From Tubulanus polymorphus (Eukaryota > Nemertea > Palaeonemertea > Tubulaniformes > Tubulanidae), in the NCBI RefSeq assembly GCF_964204645.1, contig NC_134034.1, forward strand, positions 10,039,414 to 10,103,413: DNA of 64,000 nucleotides, read 5' to 3'. Made by a program: the position numbers and the translations under genes. Below the pieces are notes generated by a model. The model had not been told where the DNA came from, ran no database searches, and saw only the letters and a program-made list of their open reading frames with translations. Shown here one piece after another: positions 10,263 to 54,959 of this stretch. The first letter of the stretch is position 1. Each line of letters begins with the position of its first letter.

Positions 10263-12087
10263 TCAAAGATGCACTTCGCCGATATTCAGATTCTTTTCGG
10301 CGAAATATTCCCGCATTTGCGCGGCAAAATTTTGCATTCGCCAAAGCTCGAGTAGCGACCCGCGCTCTTTGAAAAAGTTCCGCTTTCGTTCAAATTGGCT
10401 AACGGGCAACACGTAATGGCGCTTAGAACCGTCTTTCAATACCTGTTCGTAGTTATAGGTTAACGCGTATTCGGTATTATCGATCGTCACGGCCCCGCTG
10501 TCGTATTTCCTCAGCGAAATTCGCAACACCGCCGCACCGTCGACCCACTGTATACGATATCGCTGGCGACTGTAAAAGTTACCCAAAGAAAACGCGACGA
10601 ACGTGTCGGCGTCTCGGTTCCAGAGCATCGGCTGCAGCACGTGCGCGTGCGACCCGACGACCACGTTGACGCCTAATCTCGAGAAGATGTTCAACCAACG
10701 CGTCTGGCGCGAGGACTCGCATTCCTGGTATTCCTTACCCCAGTGAACGTACGCTATCATCTGATCGACGTTCTTGACAGCTGCAAACGATACGTCCCGT
10801 TCGATCGCCGCCTCGTCCAGCACGTTCACGATGTAAGGCAACGGGAACGAACTGAAGCTATTGTACGCGTCGGTATAGAACAAAATGGCGATTTGTATAC
10901 TGCGTTTAGTTAGAATCAGCGGCGAATTCTTTTTCCTGTCGCGTTCGTTTAGAAACGTACCCGAACGTCGAATGCGAAGGGAATCGAGGGTTTTGATTGT
11001 GCTTTCTACTCCGTCGGTTTTTCGATCGAAAGCGTGGTTGTTCGCAGTCGACAGCGCGTCGAAGCCGACATCTCTCAGGGCTCGAGGTAGCGCCGCCGGA
11101 CCGCTGAAACGTGGGAAGCCGGTGTAAGGTTTATGACCGATTGGCAATTCCAAGTTGCCGATTGTGAAATCGGTAGCATTCAGTATATGCCGCATGTACC
11201 TGGAAAAATTAATTCTATGTAAATTACTGAAATAAAGAATCTCACAATAAGAATAGTAACTAAAATTCCGAAATTTGCCAAATTTCGGAATTTTAGTTAC
11301 TATTCTTATTGAAGCTCAAAGATGGTCCTTGAGCTACTAGTTTATTTCGACTTCTACTTGATCCCAATAGTCATCTTCAGGATTATGGGAATGAAGTCAA
11401 AACGTTGAAATAACCTATGGTAGGTCAAGGAAATATTTTGGACTGGCTCTATTTCTTATAGTGGCATTTCACATTATCGTTACAACACGTGCACTGTGTT
11501 TCATCAATGGGTACTAAGTATATTATTCACTGTGGCAAGTGAGGATCCGCCAGGTGTTCTAGCGTGCAGTAGGACATCAACTACCGGTACAGTGACATGA
11601 TTCCATATTATGATTCCACATATTCCATAAGTCGTCATCCACAAAAAAAGCATCGAAGATCTCTCTGTCCGTGATGATACTGTGCTCAAATAGTGCCATG
11701 TACCCGTCGTCTTTGGTACAGTTTTATCACACAAGAAGATCGTAGAAATGCCGTTTTCACAATTATACGACACGTTTTTAGTACGGTAATGATACATTGG
11801 CACGGTTTGGTGACGTTAAACTGTACCAAAAATGTACCGAAATTTTACCAGTGAACCGTAAAATGGAAAAAGTGTTATACCTGAACGAGTAGTCAAAATT
11901 GTAGAGTCCAGTTTTGTTGTTGAATGCAGCTTTCTGTAACGTATCGTGTCCCATTATATCTCCTGTGAACTGTAGAGTCACTGTTTGATAACGACCATAG
12001 TGATTGCGACGCCTTCTCAACATCAGGGTGTAATACACAACAACCAATATCAACAGTATAAAACCTGCTCCTACAAGTCTCTTTATT
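10263..12087 (-). CDS. CapA/PGA_cap-like protein 1, 5' end unresolved
   Basis: Two visible coding exons: 12087-11881 and 11199-10263, joined in phase 2 (TTC AG|G TAC), giving about 380 residues. The first encodes a membrane anchor (IKRLVGAGFILLILVVVYY) followed by LQFTGDIMGHD. The second has GNLELPIG, STANNHAFD, AYVHWGKEY, VVGSHAHVLQP and FSLGNF. These are the hallmark blocks of the PGA_cap family (PF09587; bacterial CapA/PgsA of capsule and poly-gamma-glutamate synthesis), which has a metallophosphatase-like fold. The His, Asp and Asn positions of those blocks are intact. The protein is predicted to be a type II membrane protein facing outward or into the lumen. The exon at 12087 starts mid-codon after a clear acceptor and has no ATG where copy 2 has one, so a start exon must lie upstream or this copy is losing function. 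The animal role is unknown. Confidence 0.8.
11245..11311. repeat. 67-bp perfect palindrome (hairpin)
   Basis: Two 33-base arms, perfect reverse complements by eye, flank a single base at 11278 (centre 'ccgaaatttg c caaatttcgg'). It lies in the intron of CapA-like gene 1, about 45 bases from the exon 2 acceptor on the minus strand. It would form a very stable hairpin in the pre-mRNA. Confidence 0.85.
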
Positions 12088-15072: not shown

Positions 15073-16896
15073 ATGTTTCGTCGCTATAAGAAGTTACTAG
15101 CCATCTGCGCGTTGCTCGTGGTCGCGTATTACGTCATCTACCGAAGATCTCCGGCGATGGTTTCCGATGATGCCCGAACACCGCCGAAGACGATATCGAT
15201 GGTATTTACGGGTGACATCATGGCGCACCGGAACATAACGCGATCGGTGTTCGACGAGAAAACTCAAACTTACGATTACAACCCAATATTCAGGTAACTT
15301 TATTTCAATGTAACTGAATGTTTCAACTGAAGTTTTGAACACATGTGAAGTGTGGACGATCAGTTTTTGAAAATGCGCTGAATGTGATAAAATGTCTAAT
15401 GTCTGGTGTTTGTAGTTCATTTTCAATTAAAAAATGTCTTAAGTGAAGTTTTAAACAAAAGAGTTAAGCGTGGACGATCAGTCTTTGAAAGTAAGCAGAT
15501 AAAATGCCTAATATCTGGTGTTTGAAGTTCATGTTCGATTAAAAATGTCTCAGGTGAAGTTTTGAACACAAGTGTGAATGATCAGGTCTTGAAAGTGTGC
15601 TGATAAGATGTCTAATATTTGGTGTTTGTAGTTCGTTTTCAATTAGAAATGTCTCGGGTGAAGCACTCAACTTAATTAATCTTTAACTGAAATTACGAAC
15701 TCATTATTTTACCTGTTTTTAGTTACAATGCTCTATTTGCAGCGAAAACCCGTAATTTATGAAAAAATAATCGGCTACTACTTCTCGTCTTAATCTTAAC
15801 GTAAATATTTGGCATCATCTGTTTAAGGTACGTGAAAAGCAGATTATCAAGCGCAGACTTCGCGATCGGCAATCTTGAATGTACAGTCGGTTCTTCTCCG
15901 GATGCGGACTGGGTGGACGGCCACTTTGCGATGGTCGTGCCTCCGTCGTTCATCGAAGCTTTACGTAACGCCGGATTCGACGTGCTGGTTACGGCAAACA
16001 ATCACGCAAACGATATCGGAAAAGCGGGTATCGTCAAAACGAGCGAAACTCTAGACGAATTCGGCATCAGACACACGGGAGCGTTCGTCGACGGTGACGC
16101 GCGTCGGAGACTCTCACCGTTAATTCTCGAAAAGGACGGGTTCCGTATCGCGCTGCTGGCGTTCACCAGACACGTACCGTCCGAGTTTAAAATGGAACCG
16201 CCGACCGAAATGAACTATCTCGAAGAAACGACTATTCGTCGCGAGGTGGAACGCGCTAAAAACATGAACGTCGACCAGATCATCGCCTTCGTGCATTGGG
16301 GTAAAGAATTCCAAGAACACCCCGATTACTATCGGCAAAAATTGTGGTTTAAATTTTTCAAAGAACTCGGCGTGAATATAGTGATCGGGTCTCACCCTCA
16401 CGTGCTACAACCGATGGTTTGGGATAAAAAGGACGACTCCTTGGTCGTGTATTCGTTGGGTAATTTCTTAGCCGATATGAAATACAAGATTATTTCGCTG
16501 AGAGGTGCGGCCATTTTTCGTCTGGTTCTGGAAAAGTGCGCAGACGGCAAAGTATCGATTAAAACGGCCGACTACGATTTGACTTTCATTCAAAAACGAA
16601 TGACCGAGAACGAAGAAACGTCGTACGTCATTCTACCGATCGACGACTTCGAAAATAACGCGAGTTTTTTCAGCGATTTGAAAACGAAAAACGATTACCT
16701 GCTTCGTTCGGCTTCGGATTTGAGACGATTGATGGCCGCCGAAACGAAGGGAATCTACGAATCGTGTCGCGGGAATAGTCGACGCGGAAGTCTCGAGTTC
16801 GAATCGCAGTACTTGCGCATGAATTCAACGGCGCCGCCTGTTAGAATATATCCATCGATCTATTCGGAAAACCCGGAGGAGTCGATTGCTCCGTAG
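15073..16896 (+). CDS. CapA/PGA_cap-like protein 2, membrane-anchored
   Basis: Two exons: 15073-15293 and 15828-16896, joined in phase 2 (TTC AG|G TAC) at exactly the position used by gene 1. Product 429 residues. N-terminal signal anchor (KKLLAICALLVVAYYVIY, about 6-23), then VFTGDIMAHR (about 44-53), GNLECTVG, TANNHANDIG, FVHWGKEFQEHP, VIGSHPHVLQP and YSLGNFL, the full set of PGA_cap blocks. The C-terminal ~50 residues form a tail absent from gene 1. The start ATG sits three bases after a good acceptor (tttag|aga ATG), so a 5' untranslated exon is likely. AATAAA at 17375-17380. In bacteria the family takes part in polyglutamate or capsule export. In animals it may act on an extracellular polymer or phosphoester, which is inference. 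Confidence 0.85.
15325..15665 (+). repeat. Tandem ~97-bp repeat, four copies
   Basis: Unit 'gaagt...gtggacgatcag..tgaaagtgtgctgataa.atgtctaatgtctggtgtttgtagttcat...aaaatgtctc'. Inside the intron of CapA-like gene 2. Single copies recur at 1170-1310, around 6010-6050, 56530-56625 (reverse), 60440-60545 and 60715-60820, including introns of CAP gene 1 and of the gene at 58978-63875. Confidence 0.75.
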
Positions 16897-22331: not shown

Positions 22332-25300
22332 ATGGAGGCGTCGAGCGGAGGGAGCCATATTCCGAAGATCATGGTTTTTCGGCCAACGATGGACGAATTT
22401 AAAGACTTCACTAAATACATCGGTTACATCGAGTCGTGCGGTGGACACAAAGCAGGTGTCTGTAAAGTAAGTTTTCTTTCAGGCGGGTTAAGATTAAGAC
22501 CGGTTTTAACTCGAACCCTCGGGCAAAGTCAGGTCTTGGATGTAAGAGCAGTTGTAAGACCATCTTAATTCTATTGGATAGAAACATCAGGCTAGATGCT
22601 GTCTAAGACCATGGCTAATTGATTCGTAGAATAGCAGTGTTAACTGGGTTTAGAATAAATAACAAGTCGAGTAGTATTTTAAAGATTAACTATTTAGGTA
22701 AACTATTCTATAGATAGTTAACTTAGGCCTATATAGGGCTAGTACTACTTGTCTCGTTATTCATGGCTTATCGAACAACTTAAGACCAGTTTAGGACCAT
22801 CTAAAGCCCATCTAACTTAAGACCAGTCTAAACTCATTTTGGTTCTATAACCAATCTAATATCTGTAAATCAGTCTTTAAGTTCATTTTGGTTCTTATAA
22901 CCGATCCAACAACTTAAGACCAGTCTTTAGATTGAAGTCAAGACCACTTTTAGACTTGTGAACAGTTTTAAATTAACCCCTGGGGTTAAATACATTTCCA
23001 AATTGCAATTAATTTCAACCTAAGATATAGAAATTTCAAGTCAGAAGTAACTTTGATTTTTGCAGGTGATCCCGCCGAAAGAATGGAAGCCTCGACGAGA
23101 GAGATACGATAAATTGGACATGATGATCCCGGCGCCGATCTCTCAGATGATTTCCGGAACGAAGGGTTTATATCAACAGTTCAATATACAGAAAAAACCG
23201 ATACACGTTCAAGACTTCGAACAGTTGGCGTATGATATCAAGTAAGTGAAGCATCCTCTCTCCTTCACATTAACGCCCTCTGGTGTTTAAATCTGATGAC
23301 ATCATGAGACTCTGTTACAGTACACAGTCCTAGTAGACACATCCTCCATCACAGGGATTTGAACCTGATGACATCGTGAGACTCTGTACATTACAGTACA
23401 AACCCCTGCCTTAGTGGACACATCCTCCCTCACAGGGATTTGAACTTGATGACATCATGAGACTGTGTACATCACAGTACAAACCCCTGTCCTAGTAGAC
23501 ACATCCTCCATCGCAGGGATTTGAACTTGATGACATCATGTGACTCTGTCACAGTACAAACCCCTGTCCTAGTAGACACATCCACCATCGCAGGGATTTG
23601 AACCTGATGACGTCATGAGACTCTGACACAATACAAACCCCTGCCTTAGTAGACACATCCTCCATCACAGGGATTTGAACTTGATGACATCATGAGACTC
23701 TGTCACAGTACAAACCTCTGTCCTAGTAGACACATCCTCCCTCACAGGGATTTGAACCTGATGACATCATGAGACTTGTCACATTCTTCTCAGACAGGGA
23801 TTTGAACTGAATCGCATCAGTTTAACAATTTTTCTCCTTAACTTAAATTTAAATTTAAATTTTTAAATTTAAAAACTGTTTAAACTTAAATTTTCGTATT
23901 TGTGAATTGTTAAAGGTATATGACGCCGTATCACGACGATCAGGAGGAACTGGAGCGCAATTACTGGAAGAATATCACGTATAACTCACCGATTTACGGT
24001 GCCGATTTATCCGGGTCACTTTACGATACCGATCAAAATATATGGAATATTAATAAACTAGGTATGTACTGCGGCAAGTGAGGATCCACCAGGTGTTCCT
24101 AGTATGACTGCGAAAGGTGTTAGAAACTCCTTTAATTGAGCAAAATGTCAGAAACTCCTTTGAAACATCAATTTTTAGATGCTTTGAACATGAATGGCTT
24201 CATTAGACTTATTCAGTTTATTTTGAAGCAGGAATTTTTTGTCACCTTATTGAGCGGTTATCAAGTTAAGTGTCGTGTCAAGGAAGAATATTTGCTTATT
24301 AATCCACAAAATCGAGAGTTTACCGAGATCAGCAGGACTGATTAAGGAGGAGTCTGCTGTGATCAGGATATAAAAGTGATGCAAACGCTTCCTCGAAAAC
24401 TGAAATTATCTCCTTTAAAACTCCTTGAAATGAAAACTCTTCATAACCAGGAATGACTGATCTGTAGGGGACCCTGTAATGATTGATCTGTAGGGACCCT
24501 GTATATCCAGGAATGACTGATCTGTTGGGACCCTGTATATCCAGGAATGACTGATCTGTTGGGACCCTGTATATCCAGGAATGACTGATCTGTTGGGACC
24601 CTGTATATCCAGGAATGACCGATCTGTAGGGACCCTGTATATCCAGGAATGGCTGATCTGTTGGGACCCTGTATATCCAGGAATGACTGATCTGTAGGGA
24701 CCCTGTATATCCAGGAATGACTGATCTGTAGGGACCCTGTATATCCAGGAATGACTGCTCTGTAGGGACCCTGTATATCCAAGAATGACTGATCTGTATA
24801 GACCTTCGCTGGGGGTAACTTGAAATTCGATGATTTTCACAAAAACTAAAAACAGTAAAACTGGGTCCAGAACTGAGGAAACAGTTCCGAATTCACGAGT
24901 TGATGATTGTTATTAATTGTTTTAGGTACGATACTGGATTTGGTTCAGGATAATTACGGAGTTAAAATCGAAGGTGTCAACACGGCGTATTTATATTTCG
25001 GAATGTGGAAGGCGACGTTCCCGTGGCACACCGAGGACATGGACCTATACAGCATCAACTATCTGCATTTCGGCGCGCCGAAATCGTGGTACGCGATCCC
25101 GCCTGAACACGGAAAACGCTTTGAACGTTTAGCCGCAGGTAAATGATAATGATAATGATGATAATTATAATGATTTACTGCAGTACTGGGTCCAGTTTCA
25201 CGAATAAGTTTGAGCCTAAAACGGTTAAGTTTGAATTGTTGTCCTCATTGAAAACGTGAAGTAACTAATAGCGATTACACCAAAAATTTGAGTTTAACTT

Positions 25301-28300
25301 TTTTGTGAAACTGGGCCCTGTTCAAATCAGATATCGTAATGCATCCTCTAACTCTAAGATATGGCTACTCGCAGTCTACTGTACCATTTACAACTCTGAT
25401 ATCACTTAGAATCTGACGAATGATTTGAAAATATTTGCACTGTGATTTTATCAATTAGAAAATCTATTCATCGAAACGTTATTACGAATTAATGTAAATT
25501 TCAATTTTGTGTGTAGGATTTTTTCCGACGAGCGCGAAGACTTGCAGCGCTTTTTTGCGGCACAAAATGTCGATCATCTCGCCGAGTATACTGAAACAAT
25601 ACTCGATACCGTTTAACAAGGTTAGTTACGACGTAAGCCACTAGGGGTAGGTGGAGTGGCGATTTAAAAAAGCGAATTCTTTCATTGTAATACGAGCCTC
25701 GAAACACTTGTCCGATCGACCGGGTCAAGTTTATTCTTATAAGGACAAGTAGGCTATGATTATCACTCGTCCACCGGGTTTGTGTAGCTTTTTCCCAATC
25801 GATACTACGAATGATTGTGCCGCCAATCGGACTGCCCTTGTAGGGCTAGAGAAATTTCAGATATGCTTGACCCCCAGGCAAGACGGTGTCTTTCATTCCT
25901 TAGATCGGACCCCGTAATAGAGTATGGATTCAAAATCTTGAGAAAAAATGTGGCCCTTGAATTTACGAATCTATATTTTCTTTTGTAGATTACGCAATAT
26001 GAAAATGAATTCATGATAACATTTCCGTTTGGTTATCATTCCGGTTACAATCACGGTTTCAATTGTGCAGAATCGACGAACTTCGCGACGCTTCGCTGGA
26101 TCGAGTACGGAAAACGATGTACTATGGTACGTATTATGTATAATACTCTTTAGTCGACTACACCTTCCCAGCAGTCCCAACACGCTACCGAGTTCCCTGA
26201 TTCTCAACCTGGTGAAATATTTACAGCAGTCCCAACGCTACCGAGTTCCCTGATTCTCAACTCGGTGAAATATTTACAGCAGTCTCAACACGCTACCGAG
26301 TTCCCTGATTCTCAACTCTGAAATATTTACAGCAGTCCCAACACGCTACCGAGTTCCCTGATTCTCAACTCGGTAAAATATTTACAGCAGTCCCAACACG
26401 CTACCGAGTTCCCTGATTCTCAACTCGGTGATATATTTACAGCAGTCCCAATGCTACAGAGTTCCCTGATTCTCAACTCGGTGAAATATTTACAGCAGTC
26501 CCAACACGCTACCGAGTTCCCTGATTCTCAACCCGGTGAAATATTTACAGCAGTCCCAACACGCTACCGAGTTCCCTGATTCTCAACCCGGTGAAATATT
26601 TACAGCAGTCCCGACACGCTACCGAGTTCCCTGATTCTCAACTCGGTGAAATATTTACAGCAGTCCCGACACGCTACCGAGTTCCCTGATTCTCAACTCG
26701 GTGAAATATTTACAGCAGTCTCAACACGCTACCGAGTTCCCTGATTCTCAACTCTGTGAAATATTCACAGTCTAGAATTAGGTGGATTCGTACCAGAATT
26801 CTATGTTTTGTTACCTAAATTCAAAAACGTGATTTGATTTCGTCGAATTTTCAGTGTAAATGTAAGAAAGACCATGTGAATATCAGTATGGATAGTTTCG
26901 TGAAGAAGTTTCAGCCAGATTTGTACGACAGCTGGAAATCCGGCAAAGACGTGCGCCCACATCCCGAGGACGACCAATCAAAACTTTACAAGAAGAATCT
27001 CGTCGCCGCTGCTGCGGCTGCTGCTGCTGCTGCAGCCATTCCTGAACACACAGCTACCACCAGGTATGACAAATAATCGCCTGCCTTAACCCATTCAGTG
27101 CTGACTTATTGATACCTTAAAGTGCTGGGGATAATTTGAATATTTTGAAAAATTCCACCCTAGTGTTTTGAATAAAGGGAATACCACTGTAGTGGGTCTA
27201 CACCGCAGTGCGGTGTATTGTTAGTTACTAATATTTCACTATGTTTGACTGGTGCTGCCATTTTTCAAGAGAGATAATTAGTAATTACCAATTACATCAA
27301 TACACCGCAGTGCGGTGTACTAATAAAATCCATCACTGATTCATACACCGCACTGAAAGGGTTAAATCATTGTGGTGGTCGTTTACCCGGTATGGACCCT
27401 ATCACAACTCCTTGAAAATATATATACTCCAGGAAACAGTGAAAGCAAGTCAAATAAAAGTTGTCCACGAACTTTTTTAACCCAACCAAAAACTGAAAAC
27501 ATTTCTGGGAGAAAATAGAAATTTTGTCTATTTCGATGAATTTTATTAACTCGTATTTTCTCGTGCAGTTCGACCGCCGAAATAAAATACGAACAAACGT
27601 CGTCGTCGTCCGCCGGGAACGACAATAAAACGGGTGGACTGAAGTTGAAGATTAAAATGGACAGTTTGAAAGCCGAAGTCGTCGAATCAACCGTCGATGA
27701 ATTCTCGATGACGAACAACGCGAAGAAGAAAAAGAGAAAATCCGAAATGAAAAAGCCGAGCGGTAAGTGAGCCCTTATTACAAGTATATTTCACTGAGAT
27801 CTGTTGTTACTTTGGAAATAGAGGATTCCACTTGCGGCGTGTACCTGCGCACCCGGTCTAGTGTGGAAGGGGTTCCTACCGTGCTGTGACTGTAGCAATG
27901 CCATCAGGTTCGAATCCCCGCCGATGCAGGATGGTCTTTCTTGACGTGGTGTCCGCAGTTCGGGGAAATAGGGAAAAACTCTAGAATTTTTGAATATTTG
28001 GGAATTTCGAGAAAATTTCTTCTAATCGGGGAAATATTTGGGAAATTCATTTACATTTCATGTATTGCATTTTGCGGAGGGCAACTTTCTTCGGCAATTT
28101 CCCTTGAGAATCATCTTTATCAACCAGTCACCACTAAAATATTGACTGTAGTTGTATGTCCAATGATGGTATCTGTTTATTTTTACGAAGGCCCCCATTT
28201 TCCATTTGGGAAAATTGAAAGATCGCCTATGAAATACTTGGGAAAAACTTGGTAATTGTGGGAACCATGTCTTCGATTGTCAAATCGATTATAACTATGA

Positions 28301-31300
28301 AAACTATCGAATTCGAATTGTTCTCTTACGTATTAATTTATTTCTAGGGAGCCTGTCTGCCGAAGAGGAGTCGATAGCGATCGACGTTTTAACGATCTCG
28401 CATGAAACCAAAACGGCAAGCAACCAATTAAAACGATTCCCGATTCACATACCTCGCTCGGACGAGGAATCGACGACCGGCTGCACCTGTCCGCGGATAC
28501 CGGCGGCGAAGAAAAAGAGCAAGGGCAAAGTCATCGCGGCGGCGGCAGACGGCGAGGAAACGACGACGTGCGATTATTGTCGAACAGTAAACGTCGGACG
28601 GAGCAAATCTACGGCGACGAAACGTAAATCGACCGATTCTATCAGCGCCGGAGGCGGTAATGATGATTCAAAGGTTTCGTCGAGTCCGAAAAAATCAAAA
28701 CTCGTGCCGTCAGACGCGGAGAAGAAATTGAAAAAAACGGTTTCGACTGCTTCCGCGTCGTCGCCGGGAAAAAAGAAGTCGTCGGAAAATTCCGATTCGA
28801 GTCGAGACACAAAATCGTCGTCGTTATTGAAACTCGAAACGACGAATAAAAAAACGCGGAAATTAGACGATGACGTTAAAGTTCAAACGGCAGCCGTACG
28901 AACGGACTCGAAATCGGAATCCGATTTTAAGAGCGACGTGGATTTAGCGGCTCAGTACGCGACGATGTCGGCGTGGAAGAAGAACGCTCACGAGGTTACC
29001 GTGCCAACGAACTTCACGTTCGACGCCGCGCGAGTCTACGCCGGTTTAGATACGCGCGACGACCTCGACGCGATCCGCTGCGGGTACGGCGAAGTCGACG
29101 CCGCGCCGCCGACCGGTCGCGCCGTCAAGTACGAATGCTTCTACTGCGGCATCCACGTGACGCCGATGCGCGCGTTGATCACGCAGCACGTCAAGCGCCA
29201 CCTATACGGCTGCGCGAGCAAGTGTCGAGTGTGCGGTTTGGCGTTCAAGAGCGATTACATCCTGGCGATGCATGTCGAGGTGGCGCATCGTATCGGCGCC
29301 GCGTCGAAACACTCGTGCGTACGGTGCCACGCCAAGTTCCGAGACGCCGCTGAACATTACAAACACCTGAAATGGTGCGCGCCGGACATCGTCGACAAAT
29401 CGATCGCGGCCATCTTGGATACGTTGTACGCGAAGTGTCGTTCTTCTTCAGCGGCGGAGATCGAACATTTTACTCGAGCGCCAAATGCCAAGTCGACGTT
29501 GCGGTGTAAATATTGCGCCGTGACGAAGATGTCGCCGAAAACGATGGCGGCGCACGTCGACAAGTCTCACCGTGCGGACGGCGCGATCGCGTGTCGGATA
29601 TGTGGCGTTTATTTCTCGTCGTTCGACGCCGTCGAGCGCCACGTGTTCGCCGAGCATTACGCGCGGGGCGCCGCGTGCCCGTATTGCGATCGCGACGCCG
29701 GCTTGGACTCGGCGGCGGCGTTCGCGCGGCACACGCGCGTCGGCTGCTGGCGTAAACCGATTCTGGCGCGTTTATCGCAGTGCAACGTCGCGGCCGATTT
29801 TGCGGACGGCGTCGGTTTGCGCGAGGTCGCGTTGACCGATTTATACGCCGAGTTGAAACTGTCGAAGTTGATCGAGCCGAACTCGGGCTCGAGTGGATAC
29901 CTGCTCAGCGGGCGTCTGTATAAATGCCTTTATTGCGCATATCGCGTCGTGTGCAAGGAGAACATCAAGCAGCACTTGACGGTGCACACGTCGGGCCGCG
30001 CGCACGCTTGCCGCGTCTGCGGCAAACACGCGTGGACGGACGCAGATTTGAAGAAGCATATTCTCGGCGCGCACTACGGCTTCGACGTCAGCATCAAACG
30101 GTGTCGTCTGTGCAACACGGGTTTTCACGACGCGTATTCGCTGCAGCAGCATCTGAAGGCGAAGACATCGCGCGATCGCGCGTCGGATTCGCGATGCGCA
30201 TTTTTCACGGCGTTCGGCGGGGAGTTCTATTGCCGCGCGTGCAAAACGAACGAGGACATACAGACGTATCACGCGCACGAGTGCGACGCGTCGTCGGACG
30301 CCGGCGACGAACGCTTCGTCTACCGCTGCCCGAACTGTTACGCCAGCTACCGCAACGTGGCGAGCCTCGTCGGGCACTTGCGACGCGAGCGCTGTCGTCG
30401 CAAGTCGACAGCGGCGGCGCGCGTGCGTTTAAATGAGGCGTCGGCGCGATGGAAACTGAAGTGCATCGCGTGCAAGCAGATATTCGTGCGTCTGGCCGAC
30501 TTTCTGAAACATGGGCACGCGCGCGCGCTCCGTGACAACGGACTCGAGGCGTTGGCGTCGACGCCGCCTGACGGCAAGGAATCGCCGGTCGTGTCGATCA
30601 TGCGCGCTGTGCGCTGCGACGTGTGCGCACGTTCGTTCCAGTCGAAGTACCAGCTAGGCGTGCACGTCGCGTATAGGCACAGGGCAACCGCGCACACGGC
30701 CGCAGCCGCGTTTAAATGCGATCACTGCGGGAACTTGTTTGCGCGCGAACACCTACTGAAAATGCACGCCTCGTTGCGCCATAGCGGTACCGCGACTATA
30801 CGCCACCGGCGCCATCGATGCCGCGTTTGTTACAAGGATTTCGCGTCGCGCGGTCAACTCGTCTCGCATGAGAATCTCAACTCGCTCTGTGGGCAGTTCG
30901 TCTGCGGCAAGTGCTACAAGGTGTTCGCGGCTAAACGCGCGCTCGAGCGCCACCTGTTGACCGCACACAAAATGACGGCGCACCGTTGCGCTGCGTGTCG
31001 CAAGGCGTTCACGTCGACGAAGATATTCATGCGCCATCAGAGATTGTGCGACAAGTCGACGAGAACGGCGGCGGGCAAGAAGGTCGCGGCGCCGCCGACG
31101 GCCGAAGTCAAGGTCGAATCGGAAATCGGAACGATCATCAAAGTCGAACCCGGAAAATCGTCGTCGTCGGACGAATCGGGAAAACCGTTCGTTTGCGACG
31201 TCTGTTCGAAGTCGTTCGCGAAAAAGTATTACCTGAAGCGACATCGGATTCGAGTGCACGACGTATCGTCATCGGACGCCATGACAACCGCGGCGAACTC

Positions 31301-31397
31301 GTCACCGGTCGAGTGTCGCGTCTGCCGCAAAACGTACAAAGGATCGAAGAACCTGGCGAAACACCAGCGGAAACATCACCCGGAATCGGTGTCCTAA
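22332..31397 (+). CDS. KDM4-type histone demethylase fused to ~19 C2H2 zinc fingers
   Basis: Nine exons: 22332-22466, 23066-23241, 23916-24061, 24926-25138, 25517-25620, 25989-26126, 26855-27063, 27569-27762 and 28348-31397. Every junction keeps frame; 1454 residues. JmjN at about 12-55 ([14 protein letters not shown]). JmjC at about 140-305 with Fe(II) ligands H187 and E189 (WHTED) and H275 ([11 protein letters not shown]). The Cys3-His zinc site is C233, H239, C305 and C307. These match KDM4A H188/E190/H276 and C234/H240/C306/C308 one place off, so H3K9/H3K36 demethylation is expected. A poly-Ala run (27007-27036) and a Lys/Ser-rich linker follow. The last exon encodes about 19 C2H2 or C2HC fingers (about residues 700-1450) and no PHD or Tudor domain. 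There is no in-frame ATG between 28348 and 28965, so the fingers read from the upstream exon (phase 1). I infer sequence-guided demethylation in the nucleus. Confidence 0.9.
23270..23790 (+). repeat. ~75-bp minisatellite, about seven copies
   Basis: Unit 'cacagggatttgaacctgatgacatcatgagactctg...cacagtacaaacccctg.cctagtagacacatcct' in KDM4 intron 2. The word 'gggatttgaacctgatg' is close to a reversed tRNA B box, so the unit may have been amplified from a SINE head. Confidence 0.85.
24440..24800 (+). repeat. ~39-bp minisatellite, about nine copies
   Basis: Unit 'aggaatgactgatctgtagggaccctgtatatcc' in KDM4 intron 3. Copies differ by single bases, mainly 'ctgtaggg' against 'ctgttggg'. On the minus strand it gives spurious long open frames. 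Confidence 0.9.
25705..25915. mobile_element. Dispersed ~210-bp element, copy 1
   Basis: From 'gatcgaccgggtcaag' to 'cattccttagatcggaccccg', in KDM4 intron 5. A second, closely similar copy lies at about 61470-61710. The shared internal words include 'atcactcgtccaccg' and 'aagacggtgt'. No coding content. The class is not clear. Confidence 0.65.
26165..26770 (+). repeat. ~54-bp minisatellite, 11-12 copies
   Basis: Unit 'ctaccgagttccctgattctcaactcggtgaaatatttacagcagtcccaacacg' in KDM4 intron 6. The reverse-complement unit occurs twice at 5033-5158. Each unit carries a small inverted word, 'aactcgg' against 'ccgagtt'. Confidence 0.9.
27086..27365. mobile_element. TTAA-flanked MITE (piggyBac-like), copy in KDM4 intron 7
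   Basis: Bounded by 'ttaacccattcagtgctgac' and 'gcactgaaagggttaa', about 280 bp, non-coding. Inside are two copies of the palindromic word 'acaccgcagtgcggtgta'. Further copies lie at 46656-46944, 47808-48075, 48076-48319 and 59254-59549, with fragments at 31529-31560 and 34805-34832. TTAA target sites and a CCCTTT start are typical of piggyBac-type non-autonomous elements. Confidence 0.8.
27845..27935 (+). repeat. tRNA-derived SINE-like head
   Basis: An A-box-like word 'ggtctagtgtgg' (about 27856) and a B-box word 'ggttcgaatcc' (about 27909) stand about 52 bases apart, the spacing of a tRNA-type RNA polymerase III promoter. A full cloverleaf cannot be drawn, so this is not called a tRNA gene. 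In KDM4 intron 8. Confidence 0.55.
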
Positions 31398-35137: not shown

Positions 35138-38100
35138 CTAACGAATTTTGTTCTTACCCGCGACGCCGAAACATTTATCCCCTTGACGAAGTTTACTGTG
35201 TAAAAGAAAATATATGCCGTTTAAAATGTATCTAGACCCTTAAAGAAAAGATACGTGTCCCTAAACAAAATCCCCCTATGACGTCATCAAATTGTTTAAG
35301 TAATTTGATAGTTCCATTAAATTCCCTCAACGACATCACCGCGCTATGTTTATTCTCATTGGAGTGATTATAGGCTAGAATACTTACGCTCCAACCGGGA
35401 GTTCTTTATAGCTGACTTGCTTGCGATTTCTAGACGAGCGTTTGCCCTCCGGAGCGCTGCCACCATCATCCGAGCTATCGGAAAAATATAGACAACAATT
35501 TTTTCACAGGGTGGCTACTTTCATTTGAACGAAATTCCTCGACTTTTCTCTGATTTCCAGGTTAAAAACCCACCCTCATTTCCATCATTTATGCATTTTA
35601 GGATCATTTCAGAGAAGAACTTGACGAAATTCAGACCCATCACTCACCCGGCTAGCGAGACAATTGATGTTTTTCGACGCAGGGGGAACGACGTTTCCAA
35701 CTCCTCCTGTTTTTCTGTATTTTCTTCCTGTGAAACCGCGCGACGAAACGATGAAAAAGAAAAAAAAGAACATTTTTCAAATATCTTCTTTTAAGTTGCA
35801 TTCGCTAATTTTCAAGTGCAGCGTTGTATCAATCATCGATTACTTGGCTGTCGTGTACCTGATTTTCGATTTCTGGTGCGATATTTTCCACTTCGTCCAT
35901 ATCTAACTGTTTTTCCACTTTAACCTTCGTCGTGCGTCGAGACGACGTCGTTTTCTTGGCCGCCGCGCTTTTCTTGGTCGTCGATTTTTTCATTTTCGTC
36001 GGTGGTGGCGCCACGAACTCGTCGTACGAGTCGCGGTCCGCGTTCCTCGCCGATAAATCCGTTTTGCTCGTACGTTTACGAGATATTGTCGATTTCGATC
36101 GTTTTTTCGTCGCGTCGTTGTCCGCTGTCATCGTCGTCTGTTCCCCGACGACGTCTGCTGTTCTCCGTCGGCTCGTCGTCTGCTCTTCCTCCTCGTCGTC
36201 GTCGGAAACGACTACACGACGATTCGTCAGGTGGCGCTTGCGTTGCACTGGTACGACTGGTGAATCGTCGCGTTCGTCCGACGACGATTTCGTCGCCGTT
36301 TTGCGCCAGTGGCTTTCGCGGCGCTTTTCCGCAACGTTGCTACTAGCGCCACCTTCGATCCGTTTCAATAATTTCTGAGTTTCGTCCTCGCCGTTCCCAT
36401 CATCACTCTTTTCGCCGATTATTGCACTTTCCTCCTTCCTAGTTTTTGTTCGTCTGGCGTTTGATTTCTTGCTATTACCCATTTCTTCATTGCCCAAAAT
36501 TCGTTCCTCCTCCAAATCATCCTCAACTTCATCCTCCTCCTTTACCTTCCTCTTTTGCACCTTTTCCTTCACCTCCGCGTCATCATCGCTACCACAAACC
36601 ACCTCCTTTTCTTTCTTTTTTCGCTCATTTTTCACACCCTTCGAATCATCATTTACTTTCTTGCTATTACCAATTTCATCTCCAATTTCTTGATCGCCCA
36701 AAATCTGTTCCTCCTTCAAATCATCCTCAACTTCATTCACCTCCTTTACCTTTCTCTTTTGCACCTTTTTCTTCCTCTCTCTGTCATCATCACTCCCATG
36801 AACAACCTCCTTTTCTTTCTTAATTCGCTCATTTTTCGTTTCCTTCAAATCATCATTAGATTTCTTGCTATTACCATTTATTACCATTATTTTGTCATTG
36901 CCCAAAATTTGTTCCTCCTTCAAATCATCCTCAACTTCATCCACCTCCTTTACCTTCCTCTTTTGTACCGATTTCTTCCCGTCCGCGTCATCCTCGCTAC
37001 CATGAACGACCTCCTTTTCTTTCTTCTTTCGTTCCTTTTTCCTTCGCTTCAAATCATCACAATCTTCATCAACTTTTTCTGCCATTTTTTGTGCCTTACA
37101 GATTACATCTTCCTTTTGCTCCTTAACTTTGGACTTTTCATCGAGACAATCTTCCGCGAATACCATTCGGACATCCTCTACCGCTGCAGCTCCTTTTTCC
37201 GTCGGCGCAAAATCTGAATAATCGCCGACTTGTTTCGCCATTTTGCTTTTACTTTTCGTAGCGACTTTATTCCGCGTTTCCTCCTTATTTTCATCGTCCA
37301 AAATATCCCCCTCATCATCGGAAGGTAATTTCGCCTTTTTGCGCAAAACTTTCGTCCGCGTGGAAATTTTCTTTTTCGCGACTTCTTTCTTCGGTTTCGT
37401 CGCCGCGTCGATGGCAGCAGCAGCGTCCGTCTGCTTCGATTCATCCGCCGAATCCGGAACTTTCCTCTTCTCAACGCGAGCATTTACCACCTTTTCATCA
37501 TCGGCATCTTTCTCGTCGTTATCATCTTCATTTATCAAGGCGTCGTCGTCTTTATCGTACGTCGTATTCAGAACTGATTGCTTTCGATGGGAATCCGCGG
37601 CCACCTTGTCGCCGCCGACGACGACCGTCTCGTCCGCCATGTTATACTCCCCGCTGCCGGCGGGTGGCGTTGCTTTCTCGGTTGAAACGGCTGCCACGTC
37701 TGAGGCTTTGTTATTCTCGCGGAACTGATTCAGCGTGATCATCGGTTTACGTACGGACTCGTTCGCCGACATGTCGAAAACCGTCAGATTTGCATTGGCA
37801 GCCGCTTTATCCGGAGTGAAGCCTCGGAAATCGAATTTCGACGACGAATCCAGTTTCGAGTCCGCTGCTACCGCTGCCGCAACACGGGTTTTCGTTTTTG
37901 TCTTCTTCTTCGGCAGCGGCGCGTCTTTCTTCGCGATCGTGACCGACGCGACCGTTTTCGAGAAATCGCGTCGACCGGCTTTGAATCCGAATTTGCCCGG
38001 TTTGTTGACAGTCAAATGAAACTGTTTCAGTTTATTTACCGCCGCCCCCGACGACGAAGACTCGTCCGACGAAGCAGACGTCGACGACGACTCCGTTTTC

Positions 38101-41100
38101 TGTTTCGTCGGCGCCATTTCGATCTTACCGCTCTCGTTGACGGCCGCTTTCCGCGCTCGAACGCCCGGCGGTTTCAAACGCGATTCGTGCGTCACCAACG
38201 ACAACTGACGACGTTCGATTTGATTATCGACGACGTCGGCAGACGGCGCCACGTGCGCTTGCTCCGAATCCGACTCCAATTCGGGCATCACTTCGTTTTC
38301 GAGCAGGTCGAGGTCGTCGACGTGGGGTAGCTCGATATCGATCGCTAACGTAGCAGTCATGTCCATCGGACTGTTCGGGAACGTCGTTTTCTCGAACGCC
38401 TGCGCCGGACTTTTAGTCGGACTCAACGAATACGTCCGACGTTTTCGCGCCGTTCTAGATTTATCGTCGTCATCGCCGTTGACGACGATCGACGGAACTT
38501 TCGCGGCAGCGCCATTGTTGCTATCGCTTGCCCTCGATGGCTTACTACCTCCGGATTTCGATTTTTTCCGCGTGGAAAGTCGTTTCGCGCCGAGCGACGT
38601 TTTCGGAGGCGAACACGCGATGAACGTGTACGAAAACGGCCGATCCGCATTTTCCGGGGTAGCGCTATCGCTCGTATTCGTAATGCCGGAACCGGACTCG
38701 GCGGCGGCGCACATCTTTTTAACGAGCGTCGGTATCGGACGATCGTCCGGATTGACGAACGGTTTGCAACTATTTTCCGCGGTGCCCGACTCGCCGTTGT
38801 TATCTACCGGCTCGTCTGCTGCCGCCGCCGTTGCTAAGGTCGCTGTCATCTCTTCGCAGTCGCTCGGTATGTTCGAATGTCGGATTTTTTTCGATTTTTG
38901 GAACGCGGCGGCCGTTTCGTAATCCGTCGGCGCGTCGCTACCCGCTCGTTCGTTATTCCCAGTGTCGCCGTCGTCTTGGTTTGGTCGGGTTACGACCGAC
39001 AGCCGGTCGACCAGTGCCTGAGCGATCGAACCACGCTCCAGTAACCCCGAACGACGACTGTTGCAGCTGCTACGACTGGAGTTACGTCGAGACAACGCCT
39101 CGTCATCCTCATTTACTGAAACAAGAAACCAGATTCTTAATACAGACTTTCAAGATTTTACTGCATTGAATGTTTTGAAAGTTCAGGGCCTGGTTTCATA
39201 GACTGAGTATCAAAGTTATCCCTAGGGGTAAATCCTCAATCTGGGTGACAACCACCATAGTTACAATGAGAAACCATGGTTATAACTGACAAATTTTAAA
39301 ATGTTCCCAGGGACTATTTCTCTTCCACATCTATGAAACCTAGCCCAGAAGAGAAACTCAGTGACCTCTAAGGTTAGCACTATCTATCGCTATATAGGTA
39401 AACTATTTATTTGACGCATGAGCTTTCGCTACTAATGTAATATATAGAAGCTTCATCAGGTGATTGAGTGATGAAGCTTCTATACATTAGAAGCGAAAGC
39501 TTGTGCGTCAAATAAATAGTTAACCTCCACGAGCGAATAAATCAGAAAAAATATCTTGGTTTAAAATCTAACAATTCCTTCATTTCTCATTGAACCACTG
39601 ATAGAGAAATGTGTGGTCAATAGCATTATCTGACTTTCCCGAGTTCTCCAGGTTTTCGGAAAAATTCGTCAAATTCCTTTAGTTTTTCCAGATTTTTTTC
39701 TAGATTTGTCTGATTGTCTGAGTTTTCCAGATCAGTGGCTATGTGAAACTACACCAAGAATTTAAGTTGAACATTTTCAACATCGTATGTGCTTGAAACA
39801 TTGTTTTTACCTGTCGACATGTTGTGAGCGGGAGCGTCCGCGTATAACGATATGTTGTTCAATTCGTCCAATAGCACTGATTTTTCCACGATCAATGACA
39901 GATCAGATGGCGCCGCTGTCGGCTGATCAGCAACCGGCACGCGAGCGGCAACTTTGTTCAAACAACGTCGTTTCAGTGGTACACTTGAAAAAAAACAAAC
40001 AAATTCTATAGAAGTTTTTTGTGACATACCGGCATATTTTTCACTGATCGGATTTGAGCGGAGTCTACTGTATCATCCAACTCAGATATATCACTCTCAA
40101 GTCAAAAGATCAGACTTGAGCCGAGTCTACTGTACCATCCAACTCAGATATCACTGTCAAGTCAAAAGATCCGACTTGAGCGCAGTCTACTGTACCATCC
40201 AACACAGATATCACTCTCAAGTCAAAAGATCTGACTCGAGCGGAGTCTACTGTATCATCCAACTCAGATATCACTTTCTAGTCAAAAGATCGGACTTTAG
40301 CGCAGTCTACTGTATCATCCAACTCAGATATATCACTCTCAAGTCAAAAGATCAGACTTGAGCGGAGTCTACTGTACCATCCAACTCAGATATCACTGTC
40401 AAGTCAAAAGATCAGACTTGAGCGGAGTCTACTGTACCATCCAACTCAGATATCACTGTCAAGTCAAAAGATCTGACTTTCAGCGGAGTCTACTGTACCA
40501 TCCAACTCAGATATCACTCTCAAGTCAAAAGATCCGACTTGAGCGCAGTCTACTGTACCATCCAACACAGATATCACTGTCAAGTCAAAAGATCCGACTT
40601 GAGCGGAGTCTACAGTACCATCCAACTCAAATATCACTCTCAAGTCAAAAGATCAGACTTGAGCGCAGTCTACTGTATCATCCAACTCAGATATCACTGT
40701 CAAGTCAAAAGATCCGACTTGAGCGGAGTCTACTGTACCATCCAACTCGGATATCACTGTCAAGTCAAAAGATCAGACTTGAGCGCAGTCTACTGTACCA
40801 TCCAACTCAGATATCACTTTTTACTCAAAAGATCCAACTTGAGCGGAGTCTGCTGTATCATCCAACTCAGATATATCACTCTCAAGTCAAAAGATCAGAC
40901 TTGAGCCGAGTCTACTGTACCATCCAACTCAGATATCACTGTCAAGTCAAAAGATCCGACTTGAGCGCAGTCTACTGTACCATCCAACACAGATATCACT
41001 CTCAAGTCAAAAGATCTGACTCGAGCGGAGTCTACTGTATCATCCAACTCAGATATCACTTTCTAGTCAAAAGATCGGACTTTAGCGCAGTCTACTGTAT

Positions 41101-50200: not shown

Positions 50201-51293
50201 AATTGAATTTGAAAAGAAAATCGTCGGTATTTTATAGGTCTTGGAACAGGGAATCCTAGTAAAAGTGGACGCCTACAAAGACTACAAAATCCATCGAAGG
50301 TTCGTCCATCATCTTTGATGATCCTTTCGGACATGCATGTCTGTCTTTATTTTCATGCTGTGTCTTGCTTGTTTTCCAGAGTGCCACCAGTCCTAGACAA
50401 CAACAGAAACCACCTGTTGATAAAAAACCACCGCATTTCGTCAAGTAAGTTTCATTTGTTGCGTGTTTTTTCAAATGGAAAGATGGTGGTACGAAAGTTG
50501 CTGGATAGTGTAGAATTATGTAACCTATGCTTACGAATACTTCGCAAAAGTCTCTGCCCTTATTTAATGTTGCTATCGAAAGAAATCCTAATAGTACAAT
50601 AACCACAACGTGGTGAACCGATAACAAGATAAAAACCCACTAAGTACGAATTAAAATCGAGAATTTATTTATTCAAAAATTCTAAATAAAAAGACACGAC
50701 ATTTTGATCTCACACCTGACGATGATGTCCAGGTTTCGTTGTATAAAACAACTCCCTAGGTCTACATAACTTAAATATGTTAAGACCATTATCATTTACG
50801 TTGCACAGAATTAAGAACGTTTCATCATCTCGTTCGGGCTAGAATTCGAGATTATGATTTATAGAATTGTAAGTTTGATTATCAAACTTTATTTATCTAT
50901 ACGAAGGCTTCATTTGATACTTACAGGTCACTGACTAGCGAAGATCTGAAGAGTAACGCGTCGAAAGAGATGACTAGTCCGCGTTCGAGGAAAAGCAGCG
51001 TCCAATCAAACCACCAGACCGAAACGGCGGTTAAAAGCGACGACGCGGCATGCCACGAAGCCGACGTTCCCGAAACCGCTGAGACGGATTCGACGGAGCG
51101 TGAGGATACTCAGGAATCCGGCGAACAAGAAGTATCCGCCGAGAGTCGAAAAGTGGACGTCGTGTTAGGGGTTGAGCGTGATCCTCCGATGAAGGGCGAC
51201 GACGCAAATTCAGTCACCTCAAAGCGTAGTGACGTTGAGATAAGCGTCGAAAGTTCCGGAAATTCTGTGAAATCTGGTGACAAAAATCAGGTC

Positions 51294-51346
<53 letters not shown>

Positions 51347-54300
51347 CAGTGTGCCTGAAGTAGAAGAAAAAGCAGAAGAACGCGTTATAGAAGTCACGAT
51401 CACTAGTCGGGAGAGATCCCAAAGTTCCGCATCGGACGCATCCGCGAAAAAAGGAGAAATGAAAGACAAGGTCGAGAAGGAAAATTCGGGGCGAGCGAAG
51501 AGACATAAATCGCGGAAGATCAGCCAATATTCGACGAGTTCTTCGTCATCGTCGAGTCGGAGAAATTCCGATCGAAGAAAATCGTCTCCGATCGGAGAGA
51601 ATGACGTGAAGAGAAATTCCGTTTTAAAGACCGTTGAGAACGACGCGATCAGCGATGATGGGCATGTTTTCCACGCGTCGACACGAGAGGGCGAAGATGC
51701 GATCATCGCGATCGCCGACGGACGATCGGTGAAGAGTCGCTCGGACTCATCGTCGAAGTTGTTGGAGTCGAGCGTTTTTTCGGATGACGAATGGTCCGCG
51801 GGCGACGAATCAACGGAGAAGACCGACGGAGAACGACAGCCGCGATCCGTCGTTAAAATCGTCGATATTTCGAACGACGGAAAAGTTTCCGCCAACGAAA
51901 AAGAAAAGGATTCGGCCGCCAGTTCTTCGGCGATGGACCGATCTTCTTTGGGCGTCGAAGCGGAGATGTCGCAGACCACGGTCGCTGAAGTCCATCCCGT
52001 TCGAATCGAGGAAGACAAGGACAACTCCGATGCAGAGTCAGTCGCGTCATCGCGGAGCAATCGGTCGTCCGTTTCGTGGAAAAGCACGACAAGTATTTCA
52101 TCGAAATCATCCTCGTCATCGTCGTCGTCTGAGGCATCAACGGAACCGCTTTTGTTTCCGCGTCGCCAACTGTCTTTGTTGGTCGATAACGATCGCGCGA
52201 CGAACGACGACGCCAGTTCGACAGTTGCGAAGGTCGTCGGTGATACAGGCGAAACGAATGAGCGTGATAAAAATGATGGAGATACAGTCGTTAAAAAGGA
52301 CGTTGAAATAGTTGAGGAGAAAGATGAAAATGATGAGGAAGCAGTGGTAAAAAATAATGAAGAAATAGTCGAAGAAAAGGAAAGAATCGTTGAAAAGGAT
52401 GAATTGATAGAAGAGGATATTCTTACTTTGGAACACGTCGCGCCCGAAAGGAGTGAGGTTAAAGATGGAAACTACATGGATCAGTTGGATGTCGAATGCG
52501 CTGTCGAACTGGATTCGTTATTTGATGAAAATGATCGCGATCATGATGATAAAATTCTTGAAGATACAACTGTGACTAATCGTATTGATGATGATGCGGC
52601 GATTGTAGGTTGTATCGATGAAGATGCTGGAAGTCCAGACGCGAGCGATCGCGGACAACCCAATGCGAAGATAGAATTTTCGCTCGGTGTGTCTGTCGGT
52701 ATGGACGACGATGGTCGAATTCCGCATTCAACGCTGTCTTCATCCAGCGACGATAATTCTGAATATAGCAGCGACGAGTCGAGCGTAATCGAAGAAAAGC
52801 TGCAAGAACCAACGATCGAAGCTACTGGTGACCGAGAAAATAGCGAACTCGTAGTTCCAAATTACAGCGATGAAGCTTCAATCGAGATTCGAGAAAACTT
52901 TGAAGAACCAATAATAGAGGCTCCAGATATTCCAGGAAAAAGTGAACTCGCAGCTCTGAATTATAGCGATGAAACTTCAATCGAGATTCGAGAAAGCTTT
53001 GAAGAACCAATAATTGAGGCTCCAGATACTCCAAAAGAAAGTGAACTTGCAGCTCTGAATTATAGCAATGAAACTTCGATTGAGATTGAAGAAAAGCTTG
53101 AAAGTCCTACGATCGCTGCTTGTGTCAGTGATGATTCCGATGATAAAGATAATTTCAATGCTCCAATTTATAGCAATGAAACTGCAATTGAAGAAAAGTT
53201 GGAAGGTCCAACACTCAGTACTTCGGTAAATGAGGATTACCAAGAGAGTCGGCTTATTGCTCCAACTTATGGCAACGAGACTTCGAATGAAATTGAAGAA
53301 AAGTTGGAAGGCTCTTTTACTGCTACTGTGACTGATGGGTCCCAAGCAAGTCGGCTTGTTGCGCCAACTTACAGCAATGAAACTACAATTGAAGGGGAAC
53401 CGCAAGAACGACGATCTGTACCTGCTCCTACTTACGATAATGATATAGAAACTCATGGTGAACTTGTTGCTCCAAGCTACAGCAATGAGCCTAACAAAGA
53501 ACATGGAGAAAATTTCGATAAACCGATGCTCACAACTGTTTCCGATTCTAATGAAGTTGTAATTTCAGTTCGTGGAGACTCAAAAACTGTTGAAGGAAAG
53601 CAATCGGAATCGAACCTTGTCGCTCCAGTTTACGATAACAGTCGTGCTGACGACTTGAACACTTTCTCGAGAATACCCGAAGAAAAGGATTCCGATGTTC
53701 TGACGTCGGACACGAGTTCTTATGTGTCTTCGAATTCCGATTCAGAAACTACGAAGCCGCCATCAGTGCAGCTTGAAATCTCGGGCATGGAAGACCGTGA
53801 AAAGGAAAGCGAGAAGGAAACTAATGACGAAGAGGTTGAGAGAAGAAGGTTGAGAGAAGAAACCGAAAGAAAGCACGAACAGTACGGATTCGGACGGATG
53901 AGATTCAGGGGTGAGGCAACGCTGATTCCGGCTAGAAAAGAAGACTCGGAAACTGATAAAGCGGGAGATGTAAATGTTGAGACAAAGCTCGTTGAAACGA
54001 AGGTGGAAAATGTAGAAGAGAAAGATAACGCGGAACCGGTGTCGTCCGGTGCGCGATTAGATGAAGAAAGCGGAAATCTAGAACTGGATAGAAAAGAAGG
54101 AGTTGAAGTTGTTACAGGTTTTGGCGTCGATGCCGGAGTAGAAATTAACGTTAACAAAGAGGAATATAATGGAAACGAAGCTAATTTCGAGTATCGACAG
54201 CCGAGTCAATGCCCGACGGGGGAAATCGAGCAGAATTGGCAAGTCAAGACCAGCGATGACCAGGAATTTCCTCAAGAAGACTCGAAGATATTCAGCGAAG

Positions 54301-54959
54301 AAGAAAAAGATGTCAACGGATTAGACGACGGGGAACGAGTGGAAGAAGATGGAAAATTGATCGAACATTCGGAAAACGGTGACGAATTCGACGACAGGAA
54401 TCATCACAGGACGCGCGGATTCTTTCGCGACGACTCGTCGTTGAGCAGTCAGTCGACTCTAACGGTCAGCAGTAAGATGAGCGATATAAGCGATGAGGAT
54501 GATAGCGAAGATGACAACAAATCGGTTGATTTCGATGTGCCGCGAATGTACGAAGCGCGCGATGATGACGAAGAGAAGCGAAGCGATTCGTCGCCGACGT
54601 CGTCACCTCCTCAGATTTCATCGTTTTCCGTCGTTAGCGATGAAATCGTTCATAGAAATGCCGGCCCGCCGACGCGAACTCCAGTCAGTCCGCCTACCCC
54701 ACCTCCGGTCCCCGGCGAAAATCATACGCGCCAATATCGATTGCCAGCGCCTCAACCACCGCGAGCGCCAGGTGCCCCGCCGCCTCAAATGCCCACGCCG
54801 ACCCCATCGAGCATTGGTGGTGCGCCCAGTCCACCGCCATCGCCCAGAGATTCACCACCGCGCGTACCGACTCCATCCTCGAGCCCATCCCCGCCACCGA
54901 GCTCGGCTGATCTCGAAATCAAAGCGGCCACCATGCTGGAGAGTATGTACGCTAATTAG
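47220..54959 (+). CDS. Unrecognised 1562-residue acidic, Ser/Pro-rich protein
   Basis: Eight exons: 47220-47275, 47663-47738, 48402-48535, 49250-49355, 49845-50001, 50238-50299, 50380-50444 and 50927-54959. Phases 2, 0, 2, 0, 1, 0, 2 all match. I do not recognise it. The N-terminal ~200 residues look globular or helical (KHKLELYFNEEVRAGRF, QYDFVYKVIERTELENVHHL, then a basic-acidic helix, then YRPTRECDD and HVGCSLNTDKYIEFYM) and are the best search target. The rest is low-complexity: poly-Ser at about 343-359, acidic Glu/Asp/Ser stretches, eight or so degenerate repeats at about 840-1080 (core APNYSDEASIEIRENFEEP), and a proline-rich tail (TPVSPPTPPPVPG) ending in a short helix (EIKAATMLESMYAN). 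A Glu-rich cytoskeletal or ciliary protein such as ERICH3 is a weak possibility. Start: first ATG after the acceptor at 47161. Confidence 0.75.
47808..48319. mobile_element. Two adjacent diverged copies of the TTAA MITE
   Basis: One copy runs from 'caaccctttcagtgcg' (about 47808) to 'gcactgaaagggtaaa' (48075). A more decayed one runs from 48076 to 'ggcactgaaagggttaa' (48319). Both lie in intron 2 of the 47-55 kb gene. Their end-to-end position suggests one inserted next to or into the other. Confidence 0.75.
48680..49030 (+). repeat. ~110-bp minisatellite, three copies
   Basis: Unit 'gaatttttggtgtcttgttgttcttgctggtga..gagtaccacaatgaacctcttgataagaaacagcccTcactgaggatatct' (in parts) in intron 3 of the 47-55 kb gene. 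Two to three further copies lie downstream at 55080-55300. Confidence 0.85.
50590..50740. repeat. Half copy of a fold-back element
   Basis: 'gataaaaacccacta...agaatttatttattcaaa...cacctgacgatgatgtcc' matches the left half of the complete element at 62320-62553. Intron 7 of the 47-55 kb gene. Confidence 0.6.

Follow-up and report, generated by a model that had tools for sequence, protein, structure and literature searches.

A putative KDM4-type histone demethylase gene with a C-terminal C2H2/C2HC finger array in the nemertean Tubulanus polymorphus

How enzymes of the KDM4 family find their targets has been described as an open question for animals (PMC3384587), and a locus in the palaeonemertean Tubulanus polymorphus raises it directly: could a KDM4-type demethylase be addressed to DNA by zinc fingers of its own? 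The locus lies in a 64,000-nt stretch (NC_134034.1, positions 10,039,414 to 10,103,413; hereafter the window) on contig C10 of the genome (267.8 Mb in 77 contigs). A gene model at positions 22332-31397 of the window, on the + strand, joins a KDM4 catalytic core to a long finger region. Our preferred reading, to which we assign a probability of about 0.6, is that of one gene for a KDM4-type demethylase that carries a C-terminal C2H2/C2HC array in place of PHD and Tudor domains, the fingers addressing the enzyme to DNA.

The predicted protein begins as a KDM4 enzyme. The original prediction had proposed a domain scan, and Pfam finds JmjN (49.5 bits, residues 14-48), JmjC (139.9 bits, residues 174-290) and C2H2 domains in the 1454-residue product, with both Jumonji matches above the curated cut-offs. 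The core shares about 67% identity with human KDM4B and KDM4C. Among solved structures its closest match is KDM4C (E 5e-161), and the best 36 entries are KDM4A-D (one labelled as a 2-oxoglutarate oxygenase), followed by Rph1. All residues of the Fe, 2-oxoglutarate and Cys3-His zinc sites are retained, which bears out the earlier claim of a full core with intact Fe and zinc ligands. Going by KDM4A, we take the Fe ligands to be His187, Glu189 and His275, the 2-oxoglutarate residues Tyr131, Asn197 and Lys205, and the zinc ligands Cys233, His239, Cys305 and Cys307. Asn85 and Ser287-Thr288 also match KDM4B/4C. Judged by JmjN, JmjC and the metal and cofactor residues of its sequence, the predicted protein is a member of the KDM4 (JMJD2) family. 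Pfam finds no PHD, extended PHD or double Tudor domain in the product, so it does not belong to the KDM4A-C subtype.

The gene model has nine exons and every intron is GT-AG. Its spliced frame of 4365 nt encodes 1454 residues and a stop without interruption, in the order JmjN, JmjC, basic low-complexity linker and fingers; coordinates, frame and product length had all been given correctly in the original prediction. A TAA lies in frame at -9 to -7 before the start ATG, and the frame ends in TAA TAG. The exons are:

Exon 1, 22332-22466, + strand: start ATG and most of JmjN (residues 14-48); JmjN genome match at C10:10061784
Exon 2, 23066-23241, + strand: catalytic core; 176 nt, length as in the canonical KDM4 copy (see below)
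Exon 3, 23916-24061, + strand: catalytic core; 146 nt, length as in the canonical copy; Tyr131
Exon 4, 24926-25138, + strand: first half of JmjC; 213 nt, length as in the canonical copy; His187, Glu189, Asn197, Lys205
Exon 5, 25517-25620, + strand: 104 nt, length as in the canonical copy; Cys233, His239
Exon 6, 25989-26126, + strand: second half of JmjC; 138 nt, length as in the canonical copy; His275, Ser287-Thr288
Exon 7, 26855-27063, + strand: Cys305 and Cys307 at its start; end of the core; conserved HPEDDQ-KLYK stretch, then an alanine run
Exon 8, 27569-27762, + strand: basic linker; in-frame ATGs, the first at 27657
Exon 9, 28348-31397, + strand: remainder of the linker (28348-29135), followed by fingers and stop codon

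Exon 9 is entered in phase 1 and its earliest in-frame ATG is at 28965, both as originally noted. The linker that follows the alanine run is Lys/Ser-rich and occupies exon 8 together with 788 bases at the start of exon 9. This 3-kb finger exon is stop-free in its frame, with a GC content at third codon positions (GC3) of 0.76. Tandem arrays with units of 77, 34 and 55 bp occupy 23286-23783, 24478-24798 and 26169-26770 in introns 2, 3 and 6.

The tail matches zf-C2H2_4 (66.7 bits) and zf-C2H2 (40.7 bits) above the curated Pfam cut-offs, and zf-met (20.1 bits) below its cut-off of 21.2. Sixteen fingers fit the pattern C-x2-C-x11-14-H-x3-6-[HC], 11 of them C2H2 and five C2HC. Chance can be ruled out as their source, because 1000 shuffles gave on average 0.3 matches to this permissive pattern and never more than 3, and no more than 2 to the strict C2H2 pattern, which occurs 10 times in the product. 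Three further degenerate fingers, recognized by eye at residues 1024, 1067 and 1144, bring the total to about 19, so that the number first put forward is a fair one. The fingers span residues 702-1448 and are arranged as follows:

Fingers 1-3, 29136-29378, + strand: C2H2, C2H2, C2HC
Fingers 4-6, 29505-29747, + strand: C2H2, C2H2, C2HC
Fingers 7-8, 29925-30074, + strand: C2H2; nearest to CTCF fingers among the solved-structure matches listed
Fingers 9-12, 30102-30530, + strand: one patterned C2HC finger (30327-30395); degenerate fingers, by eye, starting at 30102, 30231 and 30462
Fingers 13-17, 30615-31049, + strand: C2H2, C2H2, C2HC, C2H2, C2HC; nearest to ZNF568 among the matches listed
Fingers 18-19, 31194-31376, + strand: C2H2

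Fingers 1-3 and 4-6 are separated within their groups by gaps of 6-9 residues, and spacers of 42 and 59 residues follow the two groups. A BLAST self-comparison shows no internal repeat beyond the whole. The product also contains IKYE, VKVE and IKVE at residues 379, 1359 and 1369, forms that resemble SUMO-attachment sites.

The window gene is not the animal's sole KDM4. Of four JmjN matches genome-wide, two fall in KDM4 genes: the window gene and a canonical copy on contig C2 that carries PHD-type and Tudor exons. The remaining two are KDM5-like and JARID2-like, and were rejected as further KDM4-finger fusions. We spliced the canonical gene over its core only and scanned eight downstream exon reading frames, two of which gave no match. 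In these exons two matches to extended PHD, at 54.6 and 44.5 bits, and one to the JMJD2A Tudor model, at 55.9 bits, are above cut-off; PHD_2 (22.5, cut-off 28) and a second Tudor_2 (27.3, cut-off 31.4) score below. The only Tudor_2 match above cut-off in the genome is that of the canonical copy, and none lies within the window, so that a further 3' exon coding for Tudor was rejected there.

Exons 2-6 have the same lengths in both copies (176, 146, 213, 104 and 138 nt), which indicates that the window gene is a KDM4 duplicated with its introns and given a different 3' half. The cores of the two copies are identical at 265 of 341 positions (77.7%). Against human KDM4C and KDM4B the window copy scores 218/325 and 220/326, and the canonical copy 246/325 and 241/325. 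Being unrooted, the comparison agrees with, but does not prove, a duplication that followed the divergence from vertebrates, the window copy having changed faster; this animal's KDM5 and JARID2 genes are too distant to serve as outgroups. The alignment of the copies stops at the KLYK stretch in exon 7, and nothing convincingly related to exons 8 and 9 was found in 20 kb of canonical-gene sequence. The idea that the canonical copy is dead, raised by the Gln in its NQGFN motif, was dropped, since both copies keep the His five residues earlier, which is the third Fe ligand. A single kdm4 is reported in each of three annelids (PMC12153100), so the duplication may be lineage-specific, or a second copy may have been lost or missed there. 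The KDM5-like gene has two adjacent JmjC exon copies (L006:220-309 and 359-436; contig C3 near 4168754 and 4168887), the first broken by stops and possibly a decayed exon duplicate.

Several features weigh against the preferred reading. Arg309 of the KDM4B/4C-type CxCRKD motif is Lys in the finger-tailed copy. In-frame ATGs in exons 8 and 9 could initiate translation of an independent finger protein. Immediately after exon 7 comes a stop, which together with AATAAA at 27171, 27322 and 27453 in intron 7 makes an enzyme-only form possible. The gaps between fingers are irregular (4-84 residues), and only six of the 15 gaps between patterned fingers measure 6-9 residues; five of the 16 patterned fingers are C2HC and three more are degenerate, so that DNA binding may be limited to a portion of the array. 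A structure prediction of the finger region reached a mean pLDDT of 35.6 and was discarded.

The ATGs and the early stop would be explained if two genes lay side by side, an enzyme-only KDM4 comparable to human KDM4D that ends after exon 7 and a zinc-finger gene that starts at 27657 or 28965. The original prediction had excluded a neighbouring finger gene on frame evidence; that argument is incomplete, because it passes over the ATG at 27657 in exon 8 and because every finger lies downstream of 28965, although codon statistics do favour its conclusion. Translation continued past exon 7 terminates immediately, for a product of 377 residues, the AATAAA signals are close by, and mispredicted fusions are described as a known problem of metazoan gene models (PMC3927612). 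A codon log-odds model, trained on other exons and applied upstream of the in-frame ATGs, speaks for continuous coding. Exon 8 is open in the predicted frame only and scores +32.2 bits there, against -22.3 and -7.6 in the others; its 29 codons before 27657 score +15.1 bits (other frames -7.3 and -8.5), and the 205 codons of exon 9 before 28965 score +138.6 bits (other frames -12.9 and -3.6), whereas all frames of introns 7 and 8 are negative, at about -99 to -144. Coding therefore appears to start from the splice acceptors rather than from the ATGs. Nor do the introns offer a convincing start exon: none of the ten ATGs in intron 8 opens a frame that reaches a phase-compatible donor-like site, and of the four in intron 7, two reach phase-matched GTs (four in total), none of them GTRAG. 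The phase of exon 8 agrees with those of exons 7 and 9, an agreement at both junctions expected by chance about once in nine. The ratio of observed to expected CpG is 0.71 in intron 7 and 0.97 in intron 8, with a median of 1.18 for the window; there is no promoter-like peak, but the gene's own start region has 0.64, so this measure is uninformative. Because of the codon statistics, and because neither intron 7 nor intron 8 offers a convincing start exon, the sequence makes it probable that core and fingers form one gene, and two neighbours are unlikely.

A single gene could still yield mainly a short product with the enzyme alone, the version with fingers being rare or in decay. The possible early end in intron 7 is compatible with this, as is the greater distance of the window copy from human KDM4C (67.1% identity, vs 75.7% for the canonical copy), but a 3-kb finger exon that remains stop-free with GC3 of 0.76, together with the retained catalytic residues, makes it very improbable. 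It is also doubtful, though less so, that the fingers of a single gene are there for dimerisation or for contacts with protein or RNA and not for DNA addressing. The irregular spacing, the C2HC and degenerate fingers and the finding that no solved-structure array of such a layout among the best 60 entries was matched along its full length all agree with such a role. Against it, fingers 13-17 match ZNF568 (E 1.2e-18) and fingers 7-9 match CTCF among the same 60 entries, both DNA-binding arrays, and the finger region is basic, with 130 Lys and Arg vs 64 Asp and Glu over 764 residues. We therefore retain the reading of one gene with DNA-addressing fingers, and the original suggestion that its product would be a sequence-guided demethylase is reasonable.

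Where might the finger exon have come from? A genome search with it gave at least 75 matches, and 44 of 462 candidates were scored. Its best listed match besides itself lies 2.44 Mb away on the same contig (C10:12507514-12508356, E 4.5e-19); the next among the matches listed has E 2.6e-14. In the BLAST alignment the pair are identical at 91 of 295 positions, and over about 270 residues C2HC fingers and spacers alike line up in the same order. Common ancestry of the exon with this local gene is likely but falls short of certainty, because the generic finger pattern contributes part of the score. No demethylase core was found in the 17.5 kb surrounding that gene. The linker has no relative among the matches listed, since none of the 74 others begins before query residue 553. 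Many long multi-finger open reading frames occur on C10 at 3.17-3.35, 10.90-10.93 and 12.39 Mb, which suggests these clusters as a possible source of the exon.

The finger-tailed copy resembles animal KDM4A-C in catalytic core, zinc site and exon layout (the last by comparison with the canonical copy), and differs from them in its finger array and in lacking PHD and Tudor domains. Human KDM4D consists of a KDM4 core without PHD or Tudor and, unlike the finger-tailed copy, has no C2H2 fingers. PRDM9 combines a histone-modifying domain and a finger array in one protein, but is a methyl writer with regular tandem fingers, whereas the core here is of the eraser type and the fingers are irregular. 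Drosophila KDM4A and KDM4B are described as KDM4 cores without PHD or Tudor (PMC3384587) and likewise have no C2H2 fingers.

Closer precedents exist outside animals. Rph1 and Gis1 of yeast belong to the KDM4 family and carry DNA-binding C2H2 fingers (PMC4949671, PMC5758875, PMC3384587); Rph1 is reported to reach the PHR1 promoter via its fingers (PMC3384587), and Gis1 to have two C2H2 fingers and to bind the PDS element (PMC5758875). They share with the nemertean gene the KDM4-type JmjN and JmjC, C2H2 fingers after the core and the lack of PHD and Tudor, but they are fungal and Gis1 has two fingers where about 19 occur here; common descent of the finger parts seems unlikely. Plant REF6 and ELF6 also have JmjN, JmjC and a C-terminal finger tail. 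Their fingers are given as four, one of a REF6-specific type, REF6 is described as an H3K27me3/2 demethylase whose fingers bind CTCTGYTY, and the same source calls C2H2 fingers rare in histone demethylases (PMC7105484). The placement of REF6/ELF6 differs between sources, within KDM4 in PMC7105484 and in a plant-only subfamily in PMC2579438, where KDM4 is animal-specific among the genomes used. REF6 and ELF6 are marked by a half-cross-braced finger, specific to REF6, beside two classical C2H2 ones; no REF6 finger entry is among the best 60 solved-structure matches of the tail. An oyster Jumonji study (PMC6771004) describes no finger-tailed layout, and we found no report of an animal KDM4 with a C2H2 array in the literature searched, which includes few subscription papers. 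The layout may already be present, unnoticed, in the automatic annotation of other spiralians. The expression "undescribed architecture" in the original prediction is too strong in general, given Rph1 and Gis1, and holds for animals as far as our search goes: a KDM4 with a C2H2 tail is known in kind, is apparently unreported in animals and has far more fingers here than in the yeast and plant cases.

Elsewhere in the genome, a homeodomain cluster at C6:5.32-5.63 Mb includes Lox5-like (with a KLNGP tail), Lox4-like and Lox2-like genes, names that rest on Hox signature peptides. They support the spiralian affinity assumed at the outset. Mitochondrial COX1 has no match in the assembly. Within the window, open reading frames at 10266-11315 (- strand) and 15805-16893 (+ strand) match Pfam PGA_cap, a bacterial capsule synthesis protein family, with 164.9 and 183 bits. 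Two longer frames, at 35829-39149 (- strand, 1106 residues) and 50865-54959 (+ strand, 1364 residues), have no Pfam match; strong base skew at 36001-38000 means that the former may be a repeat artefact.

We propose that a whole KDM4 gene was duplicated, introns included, and that its 3' half was exchanged for a finger exon related to that of a nearby zinc-finger gene. From its sequence the core would remove H3K9me2/3 and perhaps H3K36me2/3. By analogy with Rph1/Gis1 and REF6, at least the canonical fingers 7-8 and 13-17 would bind DNA and so recruit the enzyme to selected sites. The canonical copy could find chromatin by its PHD and Tudor domains, whereas the finger-tailed copy would use its fingers. 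A broader proposal, which we advance tentatively and with the odds somewhat against it, is that a spiralian evolved a sequence-addressed H3K9me3/H3K36me3 eraser by KDM4 duplication and capture of a finger exon from its own repertoire, independently of Rph1/Gis1 and REF6.

If true, such an eraser would act in the opposite sense to silencing-recruiting finger proteins: chosen genes or repeats would be opened by fingers and not by the reading of histone marks. Were it independent of the yeast and plant cases, it would be a third origin of the same solution. With a mark-reading and a finger-tailed KDM4 in one genome, two modes of addressing the same enzyme may be compared in a single animal.

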